Origin: Branchiostoma lanceolatum | Taxonomy: Eukaryota > Chordata > Leptocardii > Amphioxiformes > Branchiostomatidae | DNA: 64,000 nt | Direction of reading: 5' to 3' | NCBI RefSeq assembly: GCF_035083965.1 | Contig: NC_089738.1 | Coordinates: 8,334,734 to 8,398,733 of the forward strand | In this document: positions 31,490-61,801 of the stretch, piece after piece | Layout of the letters: each line of letters begins with the position of its first letter | Position numbering within the stretch: the stretch's first letter is position 1 | Program-made: the position numbers and the translations under genes | Notes under the pieces: generated by a model | Database searches by the model: none | What the model saw: only the letters and a program-made list of their open reading frames with translations | What the model was told of the DNA's origin: nothing

Positions 31490-32609
31490 GTAAGTACCCA
31501 TATTCCAGCCCTTCTTATAGTGATATTATACAGGTGACAGATAGCGGAAGTGCATACCATTGTCTTTAAGGGGCGGGTCTTCCTTCAGGAAAGCTCGATT
31601 TTACTTGTGCCATGTGCGTGCGGTGAATCTATAATAAAGAAGAGGTCGATCCTTCTACAAGACGTATTACATATCTGGGGCCGCGGTGACTCTTGAATTG
31701 CCAACTACCCAGAAATCTTGAGACAAAGGCCTTTGTAACAACGCGTGGGCGGGTGTACTCGCCGATTGAATAATTAATGTTAACGTATGATTGCGTTAGA
31801 CCGAAAAATTACCAAACGCACCACACCTATCAATGATAAAGAATGTAAATTGCATCAACATTGATCGTTGCCGAAAACTTGATGTAATTTTATCGTTCAA
31901 GACTGTAAGATTGTATAATATGACTTAAAACAATTTTGTCAAGTCACGATTGACGTGAGAAACCAAGAGACCCAGAAATTTCAACAATCTTTTTATCCAC
32001 CAAGATCAAATAGAAGTGAGAAGGCGACTCTAGCAATGAGCAAAGGTTGGTTTTTAGGGAATTGCATCATCCTAATGTATGAGCGTGTTTAAGTTTAAGC
32101 CGTCGTTTAATTGCCATGTTTGAGTTTGAGAACACGTCATACCTTTCAAGCCCACCCTTATTAGTATTCATGGCACGTCAACGTACAAAGCGTGGGAGGT
32201 CTTGAAATATGTAAGTCAAGGTACGCTAGTATATACGGGAGAATATGCTTTAAAACGTGCGATTGAATCTTACCTAAAAACACCACTATGCAATGTTGTT
32301 TAAGATGCAAATTTGTGGTTGAAAATCCTGCATTAATCGTACACCATTGGCATGATAATGAATTAAGGAGGAAAGTCCTTTCTACCCTGGTTGCATAATA
32401 CCTTACCCGTTCCTTCTACATAATGCCCTTGCCGTTGCGTAACCCACGTGATGAAAAAAAATCGATATTAGTTCTTAGCGAGTGGGGCATGGTGTTTGCC
32501 TTTCTTCAAATTGTGCAGATTTGTACTGCTATTTTGCTTTATATTTTAGTGGTGAATGTAGTAGCTATAGTTCGTAGTTAAAAACCTGCTGATCGACAAA
32601 TGTTGCTCA

Positions 32610-43036: not shown

Positions 43037-43075
43037 ATGGCTCTTCCCTCTGATCTGGATATCCAGGTACTTTAA
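43037..43075 (+). other. Upstream ORF of the LRR receptor
   Basis: Twelve codons and a stop in the predicted 5' UTR. Its start (GTAATGGCTCT) is the same 11 bases as at the main start, as if the start region had been duplicated. It could dampen translation of the main frame. Confidence 0.4.
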
Positions 43076-43115
43076 AAACGTAACGTGTACACATGCCGCA
43101 GTCGTAGTCGTAGTA

Positions 43116-45950
43116 ATGGCTCTGAAGAAAGGACATGTCATGGTCGCTCTTCCTTGGCTGATTCTGGTGATTGCCTGCGTAGGTTCGTCTAACCTCTACC
43201 TTCCCCTGTGTAACAAAGCTGACTGGTCAGAATGTATACGTGACACTATGAACTTGGCCTTCAAGAGCTACCCAGAAGGTATATGTATCGTGTGTAATGA
43301 CCAGGAAGAAAGCATGGTTAATGTCAGTACTAGTCCTGATCGTACAGCTTGGCGGATTGGCACAGTCCTGGCAATAAGACGTCATCCATTCGGCGTTCTG
43401 TCGGCAAAGAAACTAAAGTCCTTTGCCAACTCTTCATTGCTGGCTCTGATAGAAGATGAAATCACAGACTTAGCGGAAGGCGCTCTGAGTGGGTTTGTCC
43501 GACTGGAAATGTTGAGTCTGGACTTCAACAAGTTGACACATGTAAAACAGCATTGGTTCACTGGAGTAGAGAATCTCAGTCATCTTGGCTTGTCTGATAA
43601 CAAAATAGCAAAGATTGACCCAGGATGCTTCAGAAACATGTCTATGCTTCTCGTACTGAACCTTCAGAACAACCTATTACAAGTCGTAGATTCTACCTGG
43701 TTCGTTGGCCTATCAAATTTAGCGTATCTGTACTTGGGGGAAAATGACATAGCAAGCATCTCTCCAGGCGTGTTCACACATATGCGTATCTTTGAGTTGT
43801 ACCTACAGAGAAATACTCTTTCTTGTCTAGATTGGGGGGTACCATTGGTACCAAAGTTTTTGACAACTTTTTATGTCAGTGGTGACAGCTTGATGACCGT
43901 ATATGACGAAACGCCACACAAAATCGTATGGAGCCTATCCATACATAAAGACAATCAGCACAAACAGTTCTTCACTGTCGAAGTGCCAAACTTCTATCTC
44001 TGTGTCGTAAGTGATCCACGAAGTGAGAAGTCTCTAGTGTGGAAGTTTGACTCAGTAAAGATTATCCCTCGTTGGGAATCGAAAACTCTAATGTATCCCG
44101 TTCTGTGTATTGACTCGGACAGATCTCCGCAAAAGATCATCAGTTCGCCCCGGTTTGTTATCATGGCTACCGAAGCCTCTCCGGACAATCTTGCCCTACA
44201 CTACCCGGATAAGTGCAGGCAGGTGTGGAAACACAATGCCGGCATTACTGTGCCATTTAAGGATAACTCAGTCGTACAACTGGTCTCTATGGGTAGAGGA
44301 AACACAACCATGACAGACGTTGCTATTTTGTTTGACGACACAAAAAACACAAAGTCAGTCGACTACACGACGAACATATCCTGTGTGGTGCTCTCCAATC
44401 GTTATCCATCTTCAGTGTCCTTCAACATTTCGCCGGTCCCAAAAATTCCCCACAAAGCCTGCCCAGTGCGCAGAGATGACACTGAACAAGTTAGCTTTCT
44501 GACATCGGCCCCGATTCCAAAATCTCAAAGTTTAGGAGACCACAAACCTCAGACATCGGCACAAACGACGGCCCAGACCACACTGAAGCCATTGGTAACT
44601 ACGTCTCCATTTCGAATCAACACTCTCCTGACCACTCTTTACCACAACACATCAGTATCAAACCCTATTATCATCCCTGTTGTTGTCTCAGTGGTGGGAA
44701 TTCTATTCCTGATACTTTTGGTAGCCTTTCTGCTGAAGATGTGCCTCCCAAAAGTACGAAACAACGGCTTGCAGAACATCGTTGATACACACGCACGGAT
44801 ACAAGGTCTTGTCTCGTGTGCGGCAATGCCTTCGGGTCTACGTATGATTCAACCCGCTGATGATCCCCCACACACCTACTGTGAGATCCCAGATCATCTA
44901 GCTGCTGCTCAGCGGCCTCTGCCCAGCCTCCCACACACGTATTCTGAGATCCCAGATCATCTAGCTGCTGCTCAGCGACCTCTAGATCCACCTAGCCTCC
45001 CACACGCGTATACTGAGATCCCAGATCATCTAGCTCTTGCTCAGCGGCCTCTGCCTAGCCTCCCCCGAGAATACCAAAATGTGACGGCGTCCTGTTGGTC
45101 ATTGCCAGCTCGTCTCCCTTCTGCCACCCAAGAAGACAGTCTAGATGACGAAACTATCCGTTTTTACAGTGCAGCTGCAGAGCCATTACTTCCTACATTC
45201 ACAAGAACTAGACAAAATCGAAGAATATATCGGGGCAACGATGCCGAGACTTTACTCAGTCGTCATTGTAACGCTGACAGGATCATTGCTGTATATAGGG
45301 TGCCCAAGGTCAGACATCATGATTGTGTTATGATGTATAGCAATCATAAAACCTATTGGCCGTGGAAGATCCCAAGGGAGGGGGCCCGTAACACACCACG
45401 GCGTGCGTCCCTCCCCAGCATACTACCGAACACCTACTGGCCATGGGAGATGCCGGAGGAGGGAACCAGTAGCACACCACGGCGTGCGTCCCTCTCTACA
45501 CTACCTAACACCTACTGGCCATGGGAGATCTTGGCTATAGAAGGAACCCGTATCAGATCACGGCGTACGTCCCTCCCCCTCTCTACACTACCTAATACCT
45601 ACTGGCCATGGGAGATCCTAGCTAGAGAGGGAACTCGTATCAGATCACGGCGTGCGTCCCTCCCCCTCTCCACCCTACCGAACACCTACTGGCCATGGGA
45701 GATGCCAAGGGAGGGAACCCGTAACACACCACGGCGTGTGTCCCTCCCCCTCGCCACAGCACCTAACACCTATTGGCCATGGGCGATTCCAGGGAAGGAA
45801 ACCCGTAACACACCACAGCGTGCTTCCCTCCCCCTCTCCACACTACCTAACACCTACTGGCCATGGGCGATTCCAGGGGAGGGAACCCGTAACACACCAC
45901 GGCGTACGTCCCTCCCCCTCGCCACAGCACCTAACACCTACTGGCCATAG
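43116..45950 (+). CDS. LRR transmembrane receptor with repetitive tail
   Basis: One open frame of 944 codons, no intron needed. It has a signal peptide (about 1-25), then about five leucine-rich repeats (about 108-238; consensus LxxLxLxxNxI). A region of about 270 residues follows with scattered cysteines and no domain I recognise, then a Thr/Ser-rich stalk and one membrane helix (about 516-540). The tail begins with three repeats of YxEIPDHL (Y-C, Y-S and Y-T versions, from about residue 588) and a YQNV site. From about 744 there is an array of 28-29 residue units, each TYWPW followed by a basic RRxSLP-type motif. Outer LRRs and inner phosphorylatable repeats suggest a surface receptor, but no TIR, kinase or death domain is present. 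I know no named orthologue. The frame stops at a TAG inside repeat unit 8, while the repeat goes on to 46046. AATAAA lies at 46302. Confidence 0.85.
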   Translation: MALKKGHVMVALPWLILVIACVGSSNLYLPLCNKADWSECIRDTMNLAFKSYPEGICIVCNDQEESMVNVSTSPDRTAWRIGTVLAIRRHPFGVLSAKKLKSFANSSLLALIEDEITDLAEGALSGFVRLEMLSLDFNKLTHVKQHWFTGVENLSHLGLSDNKIAKIDPGCFRNMSMLLVLNLQNNLLQVVDSTWFVGLSNLAYLYLGENDIASISPGVFTHMRIFELYLQRNTLSCLDWGVPLVPKFLTTFYVSGDSLMTVYDETPHKIVWSLSIHKDNQHKQFFTVEVPNFYLCVVSDPRSEKSLVWKFDSVKIIPRWESKTLMYPVLCIDSDRSPQKIISSPRFVIMATEASPDNLALHYPDKCRQVWKHNAGITVPFKDNSVVQLVSMGRGNTTMTDVAILFDDTKNTKSVDYTTNISCVVLSNRYPSSVSFNISPVPKIPHKACPVRRDDTEQVSFLTSAPIPKSQSLGDHKPQTSAQTTAQTTLKPLVTTSPFRINTLLTTLYHNTSVSNPIIIPVVVSVVGILFLILLVAFLLKMCLPKVRNNGLQNIVDTHARIQGLVSCAAMPSGLRMIQPADDPPHTYCEIPDHLAAAQRPLPSLPHTYSEIPDHLAAAQRPLDPPSLPHAYTEIPDHLALAQRPLPSLPREYQNVTASCWSLPARLPSATQEDSLDDETIRFYSAAAEPLLPTFTRTRQNRRIYRGNDAETLLSRHCNADRIIAVYRVPKVRHHDCVMMYSNHKTYWPWKIPREGARNTPRRASLPSILPNTYWPWEMPEEGTSSTPRRASLSTLPNTYWPWEILAIEGTRIRSRRTSLPLSTLPNTYWPWEILAREGTRIRSRRASLPLSTLPNTYWPWEMPREGTRNTPRRVSLPLATAPNTYWPWAIPGKETRNTPQRASLPLSTLPNTYWPWAIPGEGTRNTPRRTSLPLATAPNTYWP
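44870..45075 (+). repeat. YxEIPDHL coding repeats
   Basis: Three 60-66 bp units each code for a tyrosine followed by xEIPDHLA and QRPL, then a run ending SLP. A fourth, diverged unit ends in the YQNV motif. The DNA word GAGATCCCAGATCATCTAGC is identical in all three. Confidence 0.85.
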
Positions 45951-53066: not shown

Positions 53067-54925
53067 AACCACAAGTTCTGGTTCCATTCTTCCTTTCCTG
53101 ATTTTAACAATGAAGAATTCCTTTTCGAGAGAATACAGTAGAGATGGGTTTGTGGACGGCAAGGGTATGCTGATATTCAATGCGAAATCATACACACGAA
53201 AAGGGAATCGAATCTTCACAGAGCAAGAGCAGTATATTATCTGCTTATTGAATATACGCTATATTACGTTGTGGTGGCAACTGGACTCATTCCCTGGTAA
53301 CTGCAATATCATAACTTTTCGAAGAAATGTACAGGTTTTCATTCATAGACTTTCTAGATGATATGATATTTTCTAACATCGACGTCTTACTAGTTGTATC
53401 GCGTGGTTTTAGTTTTAGCATCTTATATGTGTTAAACATGTATACTGATATTATCCAGACACTGTTATCAAACACTATTCCAATATCTCCCTATGTATAT
53501 ATACGAAGGTCAACCCATGTGATTCATTCCAACATATAGTACGGATAATTTAGTCTCGATGTATATGCTTGATTTTTGGTATGTGCTGTGGGAATATAGC
53601 CGATTTACGAATGAAATACGTCAGTAAAAGATTATTAAGTTTACCTTCACGACATATTAATTTTGCTCTTTGCTCATTTTTCTGTTCCAAAGAAATAAGG
53701 TCAATGACCTGTACCAGACGGCTGTCACCATGGTTACTGGCACTGTAGCAGACACCATGTGTAAGCAATGCCCCCTGTGTATTTGTTGTATCAAGTGGCA
53801 GGACAGAGCTGGAGGGGCTGGTCACCATATATATATGAATTTGAGTAAGGAAAAATATGTAGCACAGTACATTGTTAGATTAGAAGGTAAACATTATGTA
53901 TATTGCATTTGCTTGCAACTGTTACCTTTCTAGAGTTAGAGTAATCTTTTAGTGAAGTAATTCATTCCTTACTAGTTGACTACGAGCGTGTAACGTTACC
54001 TAAAGACAGAAAATATTATTACTATTTTTAAGGTATAATATCTCTTTTCAACCTGTAATGAACGAAAATAAATATGCATGCATTGTTTGGATGTGTATTG
54101 TTCTTTGCATATCTTGTGTGCGTGGGATGTAAGTAGCCTGCAGAACAAACTACTCACTAACGAATATGAAAAATACACCAGGTAACATGTTTATTCAAAG
54201 GATGAAGATTTATTGAAATGGCATGCGTCATATGAATAATAAAACTACAGAGAGTGTAGAAATATCAACGACGTGAATAGCACATGCAGGTACATATTGA
54301 AGTGAATATAACAGTTTGAACATCTACAATTTCTATCTTCGCAACAATATGCCTTTTCTATGATGATAATGTGATTCATTTCTAATACATATAAGGAAGT
54401 CACATTGGTAAAGTCTGAATAGCACCTTTCTTTTCTAAGTACATGCTGCTAAGATACAATTACCCCCAAAGAAATTGGTATCATTCTAATCACGTGATGC
54501 TATAAGGTCTGAAAATAACAATACAAACCAACTGTCTGTCGAATTATTAGAATTATGTTAAGGGTATGTCGTATTTCTATATATAGCCTAGTTATTTATA
54601 GATGTAAGAAAACGACAATAGTTTTTATTATCATTATCATTGATTAAATACATACGCAGCTATAATCTAAAAGAAAGTAATATGTCGCTAAATATGAAAT
54701 TATAAGTTGAAATATTGGATTTTATACATCTCATCCCCACTACCATGAGGAGCATACTCAAGTCCATGTTCTATATACCAATATCTGTAGCACCGCCTCA
54801 TACATTTCCTCGCTATCTTCAAACTGCTTCAAACTTCAAGCGAACTGATAAATGTTTTTATCTATTTCTACTTTTAAAATCATCTTCGGACTTTGTCGTC
54901 ACCTTGTTGTCAGGAACCGCTACTT
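53067..54925. other. Convergent 3' flanks, no gene seen
   Basis: Space between the stop codons of the TMEM272-like gene (+) and the LTD gene (-). It holds a plus-strand AATAAA at 54067-54072 and a minus-strand AATAAA at 54629-54624. The frames are short and featureless. Confidence 0.5.
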
Positions 54926-57900
54926 CTAGGCGTCCGTACCGTCGTCGTAGCCGAGGTCGCGATAAGCAATCTTGATGTCGTTCTTAACTCCTTTTGGCAA
55001 CGATAAGCTGTGATAAAAACAATTACGATGATCAGATTGGAAAACTGAGTGAAAGTATTTTTCACAGTAGAGTTATGATATGTAAAGCAACGTTGCCTGG
55101 GTGACCTGTGTTTTGCTGTACTGCAATCTCAATAAAATTAAAATAAATGAATAAAACAATAGCCCAGCTTCCTTGAATAATTCCAACAGGTTGGTAAGTC
55201 ACTGAATAAAAAGACTCTCTTTACACAACCAAGCGTTTCATTCAATTGACGTTTCGATGACCATCTGTCACCTTTCTAATGGTAATTCTGATTGGGACCG
55301 CATCTGTTAGCAGCGACACCTATAGCTGCAGTGCAAAGTTTCGGTGACCGTCTGTCACCATCCTGATGACAAATCTGATTGGTCCACTTAGTACTGCAGC
55401 TATAGGCGTCGCTGCTTACAGATGCGGTCCCAGTGAGAATTGTCCTGAGGATGGTGACAGACGGTCACCGAAACGTCGGTTGAACAAAACACTTGGTTGT
55501 GTACAAAGAGTCGTTTTATTCAGTATAGTCCAGCTTTAGTGTGTTTTTTTTTCACGAACGTTAACAAGGGTTAGAAACTTACCGTCTGCGATAGATGTAG
55601 AACCCCGCGGCTGCTGAGATGACCCCAGCTAGGAGCACTCCGATCACGGCACCGGCAACCTTACCCCCGGCTCCACTGACAGGCGCTGTGTAGAAAGGCA
55701 TTAAGAGGTATGAGAAGATTGTTGACACTTATTGCAGTGGTATGAAGATATAGATAAAAGAGTTATTTCTTAGAAATAAACATGTCTTTTTTTTCGTTAT
55801 CATAGCTTGGCTCAATCCTAAACTATTCTTTAGTTGAATGTTCCGTGCTGGAAGAATCTGAATCAAAGTTGAACATCAGTTTACCAACAAAAATTGGACT
55901 GACCCAAATTTTCATTGTCATTCCTTGACAAAGACTGGAGTTGATCAATCAAAAATTTGGGTAAGTCCATTTCTTGTGTGTTGGTAATTAACTTTGATTT
56001 GAAACAAACTATTCTTTTGTTTGAAGACATACATTGCCTTTTAATGTTGACGAATGTTAGACATCTAGGTAATGATACAAAACCTGTTTCTTTAGCTTTT
56101 TTCTTAAGTCACTGACGAAAGAAAGCGGGTGCTGTCTGAAACGTCTGACTGTTTCAAAATCTTATTCAGTCGCTTGAGTAACTGTATTGCTGTATGCTGG
56201 TGTATAGTGCTGGTGTACATTGCCTTTTAACTTTTTTGGCGTTATATTTTTCAGGCTAGACAGAGTTGATAAAGTCTCAGAAAAAAGGACGTGGCGAAGA
56301 GCTTACCGACTGTTGCCGTTTGCTCGTCAGTTTCCTCCGGATCCGGGATGTTGTCACAGATGTTTTCTTTGCCAGGTGTCGGGACGGACAGGGCGAACTG
56401 GGACAGGTTGACGGGATCAGTCCCCCTACACCTACTGAGCGACTCGTCTATGTCTCCTGGATAGTACACCTGCGACTCGTGAAGCGGTTTCTGCCCTGGC
56501 GTTAGAGTCTTCAGGATGAGGTTACTCCCCTTCCATTCACGAGTAGAGTACACCACGGCGTCTATGAGATTATCCGCTATGACAGGCATCCCCTTCTCGT
56601 ACTTTCCGCCCGGGTCGTAGTAAAGAGCTACGGCATCTTCTCCGTTCTGTATGACGTTTTGGTACCTGTCTATTAGATAGTCCGGAGGCTGGCGTAAGCC
56701 TTCTGTGCCGACGACGAAATATCCTTTCCCTGGAATCGAGTATCCCGCTAAGTCAATTGCAAGGTAAACTTTGTCTCTGTTGCCGTCGTATAAGACCAAG
56801 GAGACGGAATCTAGAGATACGACTGTCGACTCTTTGTTGTAGAGCTCTATGAATTCTTTCCGATCGTACGATGGGTTGTCGACGTTTATTTCGTTGATGA
56901 CGATTCTGGGTGCTTTGGAGGAGCAGTTGTTCCTACGGCCCGGAGTTGGGAATGTTAGGGTAAAGTCTGAGAGCTCGCGGGGGGTTAGACCACCGCACCT
57001 ACTCAAAGACTCGTCCACATCGCCGGCATTGAAACTTTTGTTCTCGTGCAAGGCCTGTTGTCCAGGCGTCAGGGTGTTCAAAATGACGTTACGTCCCTCA
57101 AAGACGAAAGTCGAGTAGACTGCTGCGTCCATCAAGCCGTCGGTTGTCACAGGCATGAGTTTGTAATACCGTGCGCTAGGGTTGTAATACAGACCGATTC
57201 CGTCTTCCCTATTCCTCAACAACCTCACGGTTTTTGCAGTGACGTAGTCCGGGCGGGGGACGACGTTTTTGGAACCAACCACGAAGTAACCTTTTGCCGT
57301 GATTTCTCTGCCAGTGAGGTCGATGATTTCGTACGCCCAGCTATGGTCATCGTCGTAAAAAATAAGGTAAACAGAATCGAGAGGGATTCTGAAGTCGTTT
57401 GGATTGTACAGTTCAACGTACTCCGCATTGTCTGGTCTTGCTGGGGTGTCCGCGTTGAACTCGTTGATGACAAGATTCGGTGTTGGGATAGGGCGGCAAT
57501 CGTTTGGCCGTGACGGGGAGGGTAGAGTCGCCTGGAACTGTGAGATGTCCCGGGGAACGAAACCTCCACACCGGCTGACGGATACATCAACGATGCCGCT
57601 CTCCACGACAGCGCTAGAGCCGGGAGCCAAGGCATCTATGAGCGGGGTGTCGGTAACGTTGGGGTGCTTGGTGTAAACTACCACGTCCACGAGATCTCTC
57701 GCAGTGGGGTTCATGCCGAGTTTGTAAAGATTTGGTGTAAGCGGATCGCTGTAGTACAACGCTACAGCGTCTGGGCCGTTCTGGAGGATTCTCGTCCCCG
57801 CTTGTAGCACCATGTTCGGCTTTGGTGTGACGTTCTCCGTACCGATGACGAAATACCCGTATGGCTCCACCGCCTGCCCGGCTAGAGACAAGATCCCGTA

Positions 57901-60900
57901 GGCCTTCCGTAAGACACTCCCCTCGTACAACACAATGACGAAGTTGTTCAACAGTACGGCTCTGTTCTCAGTGTTGTAGAGTTCGATGAACTCTTCCTCG
58001 TCTGTGGAGGGGTTGTCGGCATTGACTTCACTGATGATGACGATTGGCTTGCTGTTTGGGAGCGGCGCGATTGTTGGTGAAATTATTGCTGTTGTTGGCA
58101 CGATTGTTGTCTGGCTGGCACTACAAGCGTTTGGTGCCCCCGGAGTTGGGGCACTGGACTGAAACATTGTCAAATCTTTTGCATTGAGTCCTGAACATCT
58201 ACTTATAGATTTGTCAGTCGTTTGCGCCTCGTTGCTTTCTATGAGCGTGTTTTGACCAGGAGCTAGCACTTCCGTCAAGGGTGACGTCACTAACTGTGGG
58301 TACACGGTATATATGACGACGTCAACAAGATTGAGATTCGTTGGAGCCATGCCTATGGTAAAGTCTCTGGGTGATCCGTAATACAGAGCCACGGCATCGG
58401 GACCGTTCTGCAAAATGTTCTGTCCCTTGCCAAGAACCACGTCGGGAGTAGGCTGAACGTCGCTCGACCCTATAACGAAGTAGCTTTTCTTTGTGATTCT
58501 CTGTCCAGTGAGGTTGATGACATCATACGCCTTCGGCGAAGAGGCACCATTGTACAGGACGAGTACGAAGTAGTTCAGTATCACGTCATAGTCTTCCGTG
58601 TTGTAGAGTTCGATGAATTCCTGGTCGTCCACAGAAGGCATGTCGACATTTATCTCACTCAGTATGACTCCAGGGTAATTGTTTATTGGAACAACTGTAC
58701 AGTTATTCTCCGTACCCGGGGTAGGAAATCCGAGCTTGAACTGATCTAATCTTAGTGGGTCGTTTCCACTACATCTACTGATAGATTCGTCCATGTCCCC
58801 GGGATTGTGTCTGTAGTACTCGTGTAGAGCTTGCTGTCCGGGAGTTAGGGTGTTCAATATGGCGTTACTTCCGTCCCAAAACTGTACAGAGTACACCACA
58901 GCGTCTATCAGGTTGTTGGCTGTTACCGGTAGCTGGTAGAAGTCGTCACCGTTTGGATCGAAGTAAAGCGCGACTCCGTCTTCGCCGTTCTGAAGGATGT
59001 TCTTCGCCTTTTCCAATGCAAAGTCGGGACGAGGGACTACAAGGGTAGACCCCACGACAAAGTAACCATTTGGTTGAATTTCGTACCCGCTCAAGTTGAT
59101 GACACTGTACGCGCGATCATTGTTGCCGTTATACAAGACTAGGAAGACGGAGTCTAGAGACGCTTTCTCTATTCCTGGATTGTAGATTTCTACATATTCC
59201 GTCGTGTCGAAACGTGGATTATCGGCGTTCACTTCGTTTATTAGGAGCCTCGGCGGTGATCGTGCGGGAGTCGGTCGGACAATCGGCGGAACAGTCGGTG
59301 GGGCAGTCGGCAAAACTCGGCAGTCGTTTAACGCCGAGGGCGAGGCGTATGTGCTCTGAAACATCGTCTGGACACGTGGGATGGTGCCTCCACACCTACT
59401 GATGGAAGCGTCAGCAATGTCCGCTCTCTCTAGGATAGCTGTTGTCCCTGTTGTTAAGATGCTAGCTAGCGGTGTGTCCAGTTTGTCACTGTATTTGCTG
59501 TAAACTACGGCGTCAACCAAATTTACTGCCGTCGGGTCCATACCCCTTTGGTATGCCGAGTATCTATCGTAGTAAAGGGCCACCGCGTCTGGACCATTCT
59601 GTAAGATGTGCTCTTCTCCTGGTAGAAGTATGTCCGGAAGAGGAAGGACTTTACCCGAACCAACTGTGAAAAATCCGTTCGGTTGGACGGTTTGCCCCAG
59701 CAAAGGAATAACTTCGTAAGCTTTCATGGAGTTGCCGTCAAAGAGAACTAGTTGGAAACCATCTAGCGATACAGCGCGGTTGTCTTGATTGTATAGTTCT
59801 ATGAACTCCCGATCATCAGTTGAAGGGTTGTCGGCGTTGACTTCGCTTATGATGACGTTGGGTCGAGGGGTGGCGGGTGATAGAGTCGTTGTTGTTGTTG
59901 CTGGAGTAGAGGGCGTGGTTACGTCTCGACAATCGTTGATGCGAGCGGGGGAGGAATATGTTGCTTTGAACATAGATAGATCTCTTGGGGCGAGACCACC
60001 ACATCTACTTATGGAAGAGTCTAAGGCGTCGCTCCTTGTGGTGACGTCTTGCCCAGGAGCTAGTACATTTCTCAATGTTGTCAATGATGGGTTGGACATC
60101 TCGCTAGCTTTGGTGAAGATGATCACGTCTATGAGGTTTCTGGAAGTGGGTGCCATTCCTGCCGTATAGTCAGACGCTTGGCCGTAGTACAAGGCAATAG
60201 CTTCTGGTCCGCTCTGCCGAATGTTTACGCCAACGTCAAGAAGCTTGTCCGGTAGCGGTTGAACGTTTCTACTACCGATGACAAAGTACCCGTTTGGTTG
60301 AATGGAGTATCCTTTCAGAGGGATGACTCCGTACGCCTGAGTGGAAGAACCGCCTCCGTAAAGAACGAGAACGAAATAGTCTAAAGAAACGCCGCGGCTC
60401 TCCGGGTTGTAGAGCTCGATGAACTCCTGGTCGTTGGTGGGAGGGTCGTCTGGGTTGACTTCGCTGATGAGTAAAGCTGGGGGAGGGAACGGGGCAGGCT
60501 GTGCGGTAGTTTGCGGAGCTGGAATTGGCTGGGAAGGACAGCTATTTGCGGTGGATGGTGTCGGCGTTGTCGCTCGAAATTGGGACATGACTTTGGGGGT
60601 GAAGCCGCCACATCTGCTGATAGACGGGTCGATCTCAGCGCCTTCCAGTACGACTTCTTGTCCCGGAGCGAGGACGTTCAACAGCGGCGTGGATGTCATG
60701 GAAGAGTATTTGCTGTATATCACAACGTCCACCATGTTCTCAGCCGTCGGCGCCATTCCAACGCTATAGTCGGTGAAATAGCCGTAATAAAGAGCCACTG
60801 CGTCAGGCCCATTTTCTAAGATGTTTACCCCCTGCGGTAAAATATAGTCCGGTACTGGCCTGACATTCCTAGACCCGACAACGAAGTAGCTACCCGCTTT

Positions 60901-61752
60901 GACGACATATCCGGTAAGGATGATGACGTCATAAGCCTTTCCGGTCCTACTTCCGTCAAAGAACACAAGGACGAAGTTATCTAGTGGAACGTCTCGGTTT
61001 TCGAGGTTGTACAGTTCGACGAATTCTTGGTCGTCTACCATGACATTGTCGGCGTTTACTTCGGAGATCACCACGGCAGGGGCTGGGGGGAGTTCGGGGC
61101 GAGGGGCAGGGGGGTTAGGGGGCCCAGCGGTGGCGGGGGTTGTCCCACAGTCGTTTGCGCGTCCTGGAGAAGGATTCCCGGATGTAAACTTTGACCAGTC
61201 CTTTGGGATGATGCCATTGCAGGCGCTGATGGAAACATCTTCAGCGGAATTTATCGTTATGATGCGCTGTCCCGGTGCAAGATCGTCCACTAGAGATGTT
61301 GATGTCGGATATATGGTGTATATGACTACATCTACCAAACTTCTCTTTCTAGGGGCCATACCTATCGCGAAGTCCGCCGGATTTCCGTAGTAAAGCGCTA
61401 CAGCATCTGGCCCGTTCTGTAAGATATTTTCCCCCGCGGAAAGTACCTTGTTTGGAGTCGGCTGGACTTTAGCTGACCCGATGACGTAATATCCCTTTGG
61501 TTGGACTATGTCGTCACTTCCGAATTTGATGACGTCATACGCGCCTACTGGGTTGGTCGCGCCATCGTATAGGACGATGATGAAACCTTGTAGGGAGACG
61601 GGTGTGCTGCCTGCGTTGAAAAGTTCAATGAACTCTTGGTCGTCGATGGTAGGGTTGTCGGCGTTGACTTCGCTGATGACGATAGCGGAGGATGCGGTTC
61701 GGAGGACAGACAATAGGAGCAGAACTTTCCATCCCATCGCCATCTGTGTCAT
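54926..61752 (-). CDS. Nine-LTD-repeat type I membrane protein
   Basis: Three exons on the minus strand: 61752-56307 (5446 bases), 55685-55583, 55007-54926, giving 1876 aa. A signal peptide (to about residue 22) is followed by nine lamin-tail-domain repeats starting near residues 23, 226, 425, 631, 834, 1027, 1236, 1425 and 1616. Each opens with I(S/N)E(V/I/F)N-D, then EFIELYN, LVLY-G, the GY(F/Y)VVGS strand, ILQNG-DAVALYY and LAPGQ. Each ends with two cysteines (SRCGG...NDC) that could form one disulphide. Pro/Thr-rich linkers separate several repeats. Exon 2 encodes the single membrane helix (VAGAVIGVLLAGVISAAAGF) and Arg-rich stop-transfer, exon 3 a short tail (AYRDLGYDDGTDA). LTDs are immunoglobulin-like folds known from nuclear lamins and from secreted bacterial proteins. 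An adhesive or structural surface role is only a guess. MTQMAMGW offers three possible starts; the first is used. Confidence 0.85.
55197..55523. mobile_element. Palindromic element with GAAACGTCGG arms
   Basis: It is bounded by ACTGAATAAAAAGACTCTCT and the inverse of ACTGAATAAAACGACTCTTT. The arms share TTGTGTACAAAGAGTC, TGACAGACGGTCACCGAAAC and GCAGCTATAGG in mirrored order. It lies in intron 2 of the LTD gene. A half copy is at 35295-35452. Confidence 0.75.
56105..56192. repeat. GAAACGTCTGAC repeat, copy 2
   Basis: GAAACGTCTGACTGTTTCAA and GCTTGAGTAACTGTATT match the repeat at 32610-32702. Intron 1 of the LTD gene. Confidence 0.55.
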
Positions 61753-61801
61753 AGGAATACAAAGACATTCTAATTACCGGAAATATAGATTTTTAATTTC
61801 A

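Follow-up and report, generated by a model that had tools for sequence, protein, structure and literature searches.

In lamins, the lamin tail domain (LTD) is intracellular, occurs as a single copy and is placed after a coiled coil. LTDs have also been reported in secreted or membrane-associated bacterial hydrolases, in some cases in tandem, and excerpts of the paper in question (PMC6085458, citing Mans et al. 2004) describe ExeM as membrane-associated and the extracellular role of LTDs as not yet elucidated. We consider a minus-strand gene in a 64,000-nucleotide stretch of Branchiostoma lanceolatum DNA (contig NC_089738.1, positions 8,334,734 to 8,398,733; the window) that would encode a signal peptide, nine tandem LTD modules, one C-terminal helix and a short tail. 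The initial annotation called an extracellular LTD array unusual, a description that holds only with lamins as the reference and otherwise fails because secreted bacterial LTDs exist, tandem ones included (PMC6085458), and because by sequence the modules fall within a bacterial subfamily. The main surprise looks like a bacterial-type module in an apparent eukaryotic surface protein, rather than lamin tails leaving the nucleus. We think it probable that the gene encodes a type I surface protein whose modules represent an extracellular bacterial LTD subfamily with a cysteine pair gained in addition; this judgment covers a surface protein of that construction and does not extend to transfer or to any particular ligand.

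A narrow bacterial subfamily of extended LTDs

The nine repeats first proposed from the open reading frame were recovered as LTDs. In a scan of nearly all of exon 1, PF00932 marked nine stretches (whole-protein score 334.7 bits, E 1.5e-101; Pfam matches listed at E<=1), and in single-module scans all nine matched (E 3.6e-13 to 2.6e-5), eight of them above the curated cut-off of 34.3 bits. Structure prediction of the first and last modules (R1 and R9) supported the lamin-tail fold, and the Ig-like fold of PF00932 is present. The modules begin at residues 24, 227, 427, 633, 836, 1029, 1238, 1427 and 1617, with a start-to-start spacing of 189-209 residues and R9 continuing into the C-terminal region. 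They share 33-54% pairwise identity and are joined by eight linkers of 6-27 residues, which are proline-rich and in some cases also rich in threonine or serine. A tree of the modules and bacterial domains separates, among the modules, type A (R1-4, 6 and 7; support 99/97) from type B (R5, 8 and 9; 98/84), arranged along the protein as AAAABAABB.

A profile built from 24 bacterial domains scored the nine modules at 100.6-145.1 bits, in every case across the whole module including its C-terminal segment, whereas six hand-picked other LTDs that these bacterial proteins also contain reached only 5.0-34.0 bits. This separation places the modules in a narrow bacterial subfamily of extracellular LTDs, the extended-LTD subfamily, which we define here from those 24 domains. 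Its layout is an LTD core of ~125 residues followed by a C-terminal S-x-x-R ... [TS]-P-x-x-x-N segment. Across 33 aligned modules (nine here and 24 bacterial), E5, D9, E20, P177 and N181 are invariant, while E17 is conserved in 32 and D14 in 30; the acidic positions E5, D9, D14, E17 and E20 were considered as a candidate Ca2+ site.

Each module carries its own pair of cysteines, as had been noted at the outset: all 18 cysteines of the protein fall two to a module and are 24 residues apart in all nine. In a full-length alignment both columns are cysteine in 9/9 modules and in 0/24 bacterial domains, in which the first column is mostly I, L or F. In R9 a predicted strand precedes the first cysteine, and the second comes two residues past the N that is conserved in the C-terminal segment; a disulfide would therefore pin the C-terminal extension, and we infer one such bond per module.

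Relatives of the modules were found in bacteria. A pattern scan of an 84,980-species collection matched 22 stretches, eight of which are relatives, every one from a record titled Bacteroidota, KSB1 or Calditrichia, and nine of ten domain rows from the relatives extend to position 178 or beyond of 188. Counting those in which relatives were first found, the module type (E<=1e-8) occurs in at least 11 of 395, in 11 of 82 and in 3 of 40 genomes of three phyla; in the second phylum, some LTD (E<=1e-5) is present in 80 of 81 genomes. Among 12 bacterial proteins scanned, Por sorting tails occur in those we label L002, L004, L005 and L008, an adhesive-like domain in L002, Endonuclease I (Endonuclease_1) in L008 and an EEP nuclease domain in L026, L027 and L028, with the EEP match of L032 narrowly below cut-off. 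The 787-residue frame of L014 combines one other LTD with three extended modules at a period of 188-189 residues. We also observed that the L014 modules (L014:892-3252) have two cysteines at other positions (in modules one and two, VLCNEADNVPNC), which may pair in a disulfide of independent origin.

A pattern scan of the viral_contigs collection matched 49 stretches, with no relatives among them, and searches with one module each, R7 against phages and R9 against plasmids, returned no matches. A BFVD fold search with model m9382b8e128da gave four matches at E<=0.001 (TMq 0.46-0.58), including proteins of uncultured phage cr7_1 and Bacillus phage G (Gp352), and judging from the modelled structure similar folds may occur in phages.

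Age and origin of the array

Differences between modules are greatest at the third codon position (0.64, against 0.44 at the first and 0.35 at the second), and synonymous change among codons for the same residue stands at 0.58, compared with 0.61 at saturation. Because third positions change most and synonymous change is near saturation, the array is old and maintained by selection, and the gene is real; a chance open frame or a pseudogene was rejected on this codon-position pattern and on an open frame of 1840 codons (61773-56251, minus strand).

As the likeliest source of the module we tentatively favor transfer from Bacteroidota- or KSB1-like bacteria, presumably in that direction, which fits because the match is to a narrow subfamily and the array occupies a single large exon. 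With similar reserve, we suggest that a eukaryotic, probably animal, lineage acquired the secreted module, amplified it ninefold in one exon, evolved the disulfides, and recruited an exon for a transmembrane helix along with a tail. The outcome would be a class of cell-surface receptors or adhesins whose recent origin has no connection with lamins.

We take seriously, while leaning away from it, the possibility that the array instead represents an ancient, vertically inherited eukaryotic family of extracellular LTDs, with bacteria as distant cousins and no transfer at this locus. Non-lamin LTD-like proteins are noted in several eukaryotes (excerpts of PMC5630835), the near-saturated synonymous change indicates old modules, and in a midpoint-rooted tree of the nine modules and the bacterial rows a single branch divides the modules from those rows (100/100). 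The non-lamin proteins also temper the initial annotation's view of this gene as the window's best candidate for an undescribed protein type. A very old split, however, poorly predicts a narrow bacterial subfamily that scores the modules far above the six other LTDs. Nearest relatives are understood throughout as those within the collections searched, with eukaryotic genomes outside the comparison.

Gene structure and the predicted membrane anchor

The coordinates and exon layout given initially, with an ATG at 61752, held up: the three exons join into a conceptual protein of 1876 aa with zero internal stops, and the order of signal peptide, LTD array, helix and tail is supported by sequence and model (Table 1). 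Signal peptide and helix were called by hydropathy, splice logic and manual reading of the cleavage site, exons 2 and 3 being conceptual. Hydropathy over 19 residues reaches 1.7 in the signal region (windows from residues 10 and 11); that of the exon 2 helix is 2.22. When splice sites, phase and a hydropathy minimum of 2.0 are required together, exon 2 is the sole candidate helix exon within 1.8 kb past the end of exon 1. In 2000 dinucleotide shuffles that served as control, any helix exon arose in four and one with a basic pair at its end in none. The tail had been described as short and basic; it is short (~30 residues) and has RRR adjoining the membrane, but it is only weakly basic and then of mixed composition, including YRDL. 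The conceptual protein ends in DDGTDA, from the predicted 3' exons.

An unlikely alternative is that the product is a soluble secreted array, with exon 1 running into intron 1 and the helix exon unused or alternative. The open frame does reach 56251, which would yield a helix-free C-terminus, and both forms could coexist, but exon 2 is in the right phase, is flanked by good splice sites and encodes a strong helix that ends in basic residues, a combination rare in the shuffles. As a separate observation, retention of intron 1 (56251-56306, minus strand) would add 18 residues before a stop, giving a possible soluble form.

Table 1. Predicted features of the LTD array gene, in window coordinates
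Feature	Position	Strand	Remarks
Signal peptide, residues 1-23 (MTQMAMGWKVLLLLSVLRTASSA)	61684..61752	-	predicted by hydropathy; putative cleavage after SSA
Exon 1	56307..61752	-	signal peptide and entire nine-module ectodomain, intronless; donor G/GTAAGC
LTD module R1, type A	61123..61683	-	PF00932 50.3 bits; structure modelled
LTD module R2, type A	60514..61074	-	PF00932 36.4 bits
LTD module R3, type A	59905..60474	-	PF00932 38.6 bits
LTD module R4, type A	59296..59856	-	PF00932 45.1 bits
LTD module R5, type B	58675..59247	-	PF00932 36.3 bits
LTD module R6, type A	58099..58668	-	PF00932 38.3 bits
LTD module R7, type A	57475..58041	-	PF00932 42.7 bits; analysed stretch one codon longer
LTD module R8, type B	56905..57474	-	PF00932 25.0 bits, below cut-off; analysed stretch one codon longer
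LTD module R9, type B	56335..56904	-	PF00932 42.6 bits; structure modelled
Exon 2	55583..55685	-	103 bases; candidate transmembrane helix, basic residues at end; acceptor CACAG/CG, donor ACG/GTAAGT
Exon 3	54926..55007	-	remaining predicted cytoplasmic tail, stop TAG; joined exon 2 and 3 tail RRRLSLPKGVKNDIKIAYRDLGYDDGTDA
AATAAA, candidate polyadenylation signal	54624..54629	-	~300 bases past stop

Further in-frame ATGs lie at 61743 and 61737. Directly before the first of these, CCTATGACACAG (61743-61755, minus strand) could be a splice acceptor, and there may therefore be a 5' untranslated exon upstream. Intron 2 contains inverted repeats (55201-55339 and 55386-55524; arms of 139 nt, 84%), perhaps a transposon relic, and a second inverted-repeat pair lies 5' of the gene (62888-62929/63235-63276). 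Elsewhere in the window, a 970-residue open frame at 43038-45947 (plus strand) carries leucine-rich repeats (LRR_8, E 5.7e-28) and is likely a single-exon gene. No convincing further LTD gene was found in the window by tblastn or hidden Markov model (HMM) search, two weak matches having been set aside (tblastn, E 0.39, at 43663-43836; HMM, E 0.68, at 31670-31795), and a scan for RNA families gave zero matches at the gathering threshold.

Proposed function and comparison with known systems

In regard to function, the signal peptide would direct secretion and the single C-terminal helix would anchor the protein in the membrane, displaying nine extended LTD modules joined by P/T-rich linkers and each closed by its own disulfide, the subfamily module having gained a cysteine pair that would pin its C-terminal segment. 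In the tail of ~30 residues, YRDL, which we take to resemble a YxxPhi sorting motif, is a possible endocytic signal. The signal peptide, modules, cysteine pairs, acidic ectodomain (pI 4.4, net charge -87), linkers and single helix all fit a long multivalent surface binder, and the protein most probably acts as such an extended binder of a ligand or surface, in adhesion or capture.

Binding of nucleic acid outside the cell, proposed for the LTDs of secreted DNases, seems improbable for the array. Nuclease domains do stand beside the module in 4/12 scanned bacterial proteins (L008; L026, L027 and L028), a DNA role is suggested in excerpts of PMC4486849, and ExeM lacking its LTD is slower or less active in vitro (PMC6085458). 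Yet every one of the modules is acidic (pI 4.1-5.1, net charge -5 to -15), which makes plain nucleic-acid binding less likely, and the same excerpts report that LTD-less ExeM clears DNA on plates almost like wild type.

Several points weigh against a surface protein built from the bacterial subfamily. R8 scores under the Pfam LTD cut-off, as do the bacterial relatives L005 (25.8 bits), L008 (20.1) and L028 (30.1). In Foldseek searches ordered by E-value, lamin B1 came first with both models, and the Bacteroides thetaiotaomicron structure 4q1z came fourth with the first model and eleventh with the second, for which there were no matches at E<=0.001. In the tree, whose root is the midpoint only, a long branch (1.07 changes per column) leads to the nine modules, and with eukaryotic genomes outside the comparison, closer eukaryotic relatives or vertical descent are possible. 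Exons 2 and 3 are predictions from genomic sequence, and ligand binding or adhesion is a function that we infer.

Duplication of a nuclear lamin tail and its relocation to the cell surface is nevertheless very unlikely. The module profile matched no lamin at E<=10 among 177,635 PDB sequences, its two weak matches being unrelated and taken as chance, and a profile of modules plus bacterial rows again matched no lamin at E<=10 (nine weak or repetitive matches, best EtpA at E 0.001, no single stretch passing; also taken as chance). The C-terminal extension of the module aligns to bacterial proteins, the first module directly follows the signal peptide, no filament rod was listed in the Pfam scan, which covered nearly all of exon 1 and gave LTD plus one sub-threshold family, and the predicted end of the protein is not a CaaX motif. 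Bacterial contamination or a misassembled contig, which bacterial-type sequence within one uninterrupted exon might suggest, is scarcely credible given GC and GC3 (0.51 and 0.57) close to those of the leucine-rich repeat frame (0.49 and 0.50), low-GC flanks (0.35-0.41), a cysteine pair missing from the 24 bacterial domains, and the splice-ready 3' exons that follow.

A signal-(LTD)n-transmembrane protein was not found in the titles and abstract openings of open-licence literature among the matches listed, and excerpts of PMC4448529, PMC5118699, PMC12051499 and PMC10125929 contain nothing on extracellular LTD arrays in animals. Seven LTD proteins of octopus skin mucus (PMC10138644) were considered as secreted relatives and dropped; they are probably intermediate filament (IF) proteins, because a later study lists nine LTD alongside nine IF rod domains (PMC11431876). 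In flatworm adhesion LTDs are named alongside intermediate filament domains (PMC6745481; PMC9229212), the tsetse LTD protein is a lamin (PMC3998921), and for pearl oyster the excerpt only names an LTD-containing protein 1 (PMC7820862).

Our findings suggest one fold with two histories, that of lamin tails in the nucleus and that of an extracellular bacterial-type lineage also present in a eukaryote. If transfer is true, the gene would show clearly how a secreted module of bacteria turned into a large receptor-like protein and acquired a disulfide. It also offers a handle on extracellular LTD function.

Compared with known systems, the array stands closest by sequence, within the collections searched, to the bacterial extended-LTD proteins, most of which are of secreted type. 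Alignments to lamin tails (PDB 3gef, 1ifr and 3jt0) mostly end near module residue 125 and therefore leave the C-terminal extension over, and B. thetaiotaomicron BT_1938 (DUF4876, PDB 4q1z) shows 15% identity and reaches a Foldseek E of only 1.1e-2 in the search with the second model. The LTD part of the ExeM-type nuclease model NF033680 matches in eight stretches (whole-protein E 3.6e-35), but at 121.3 bits against a curated cut-off of 1300 the protein falls outside that family, and the Pfam scan found no nuclease domain in the exon 1 protein, whereas ExeM-type nucleases have one. Unlike the protein here, the bacterial extended-LTD proteins (such as L001-L008, L014 and L026-L033) lack the cysteine pair at these columns (0/24 domains), carry sorting tails or nuclease domains in 7/12 of those scanned, and among the scanned ones hold at most five LTD stretches per frame (L003, two of extended type) rather than nine; like it, they match the module over nearly its whole length and, in L014, occur as tandem copies.
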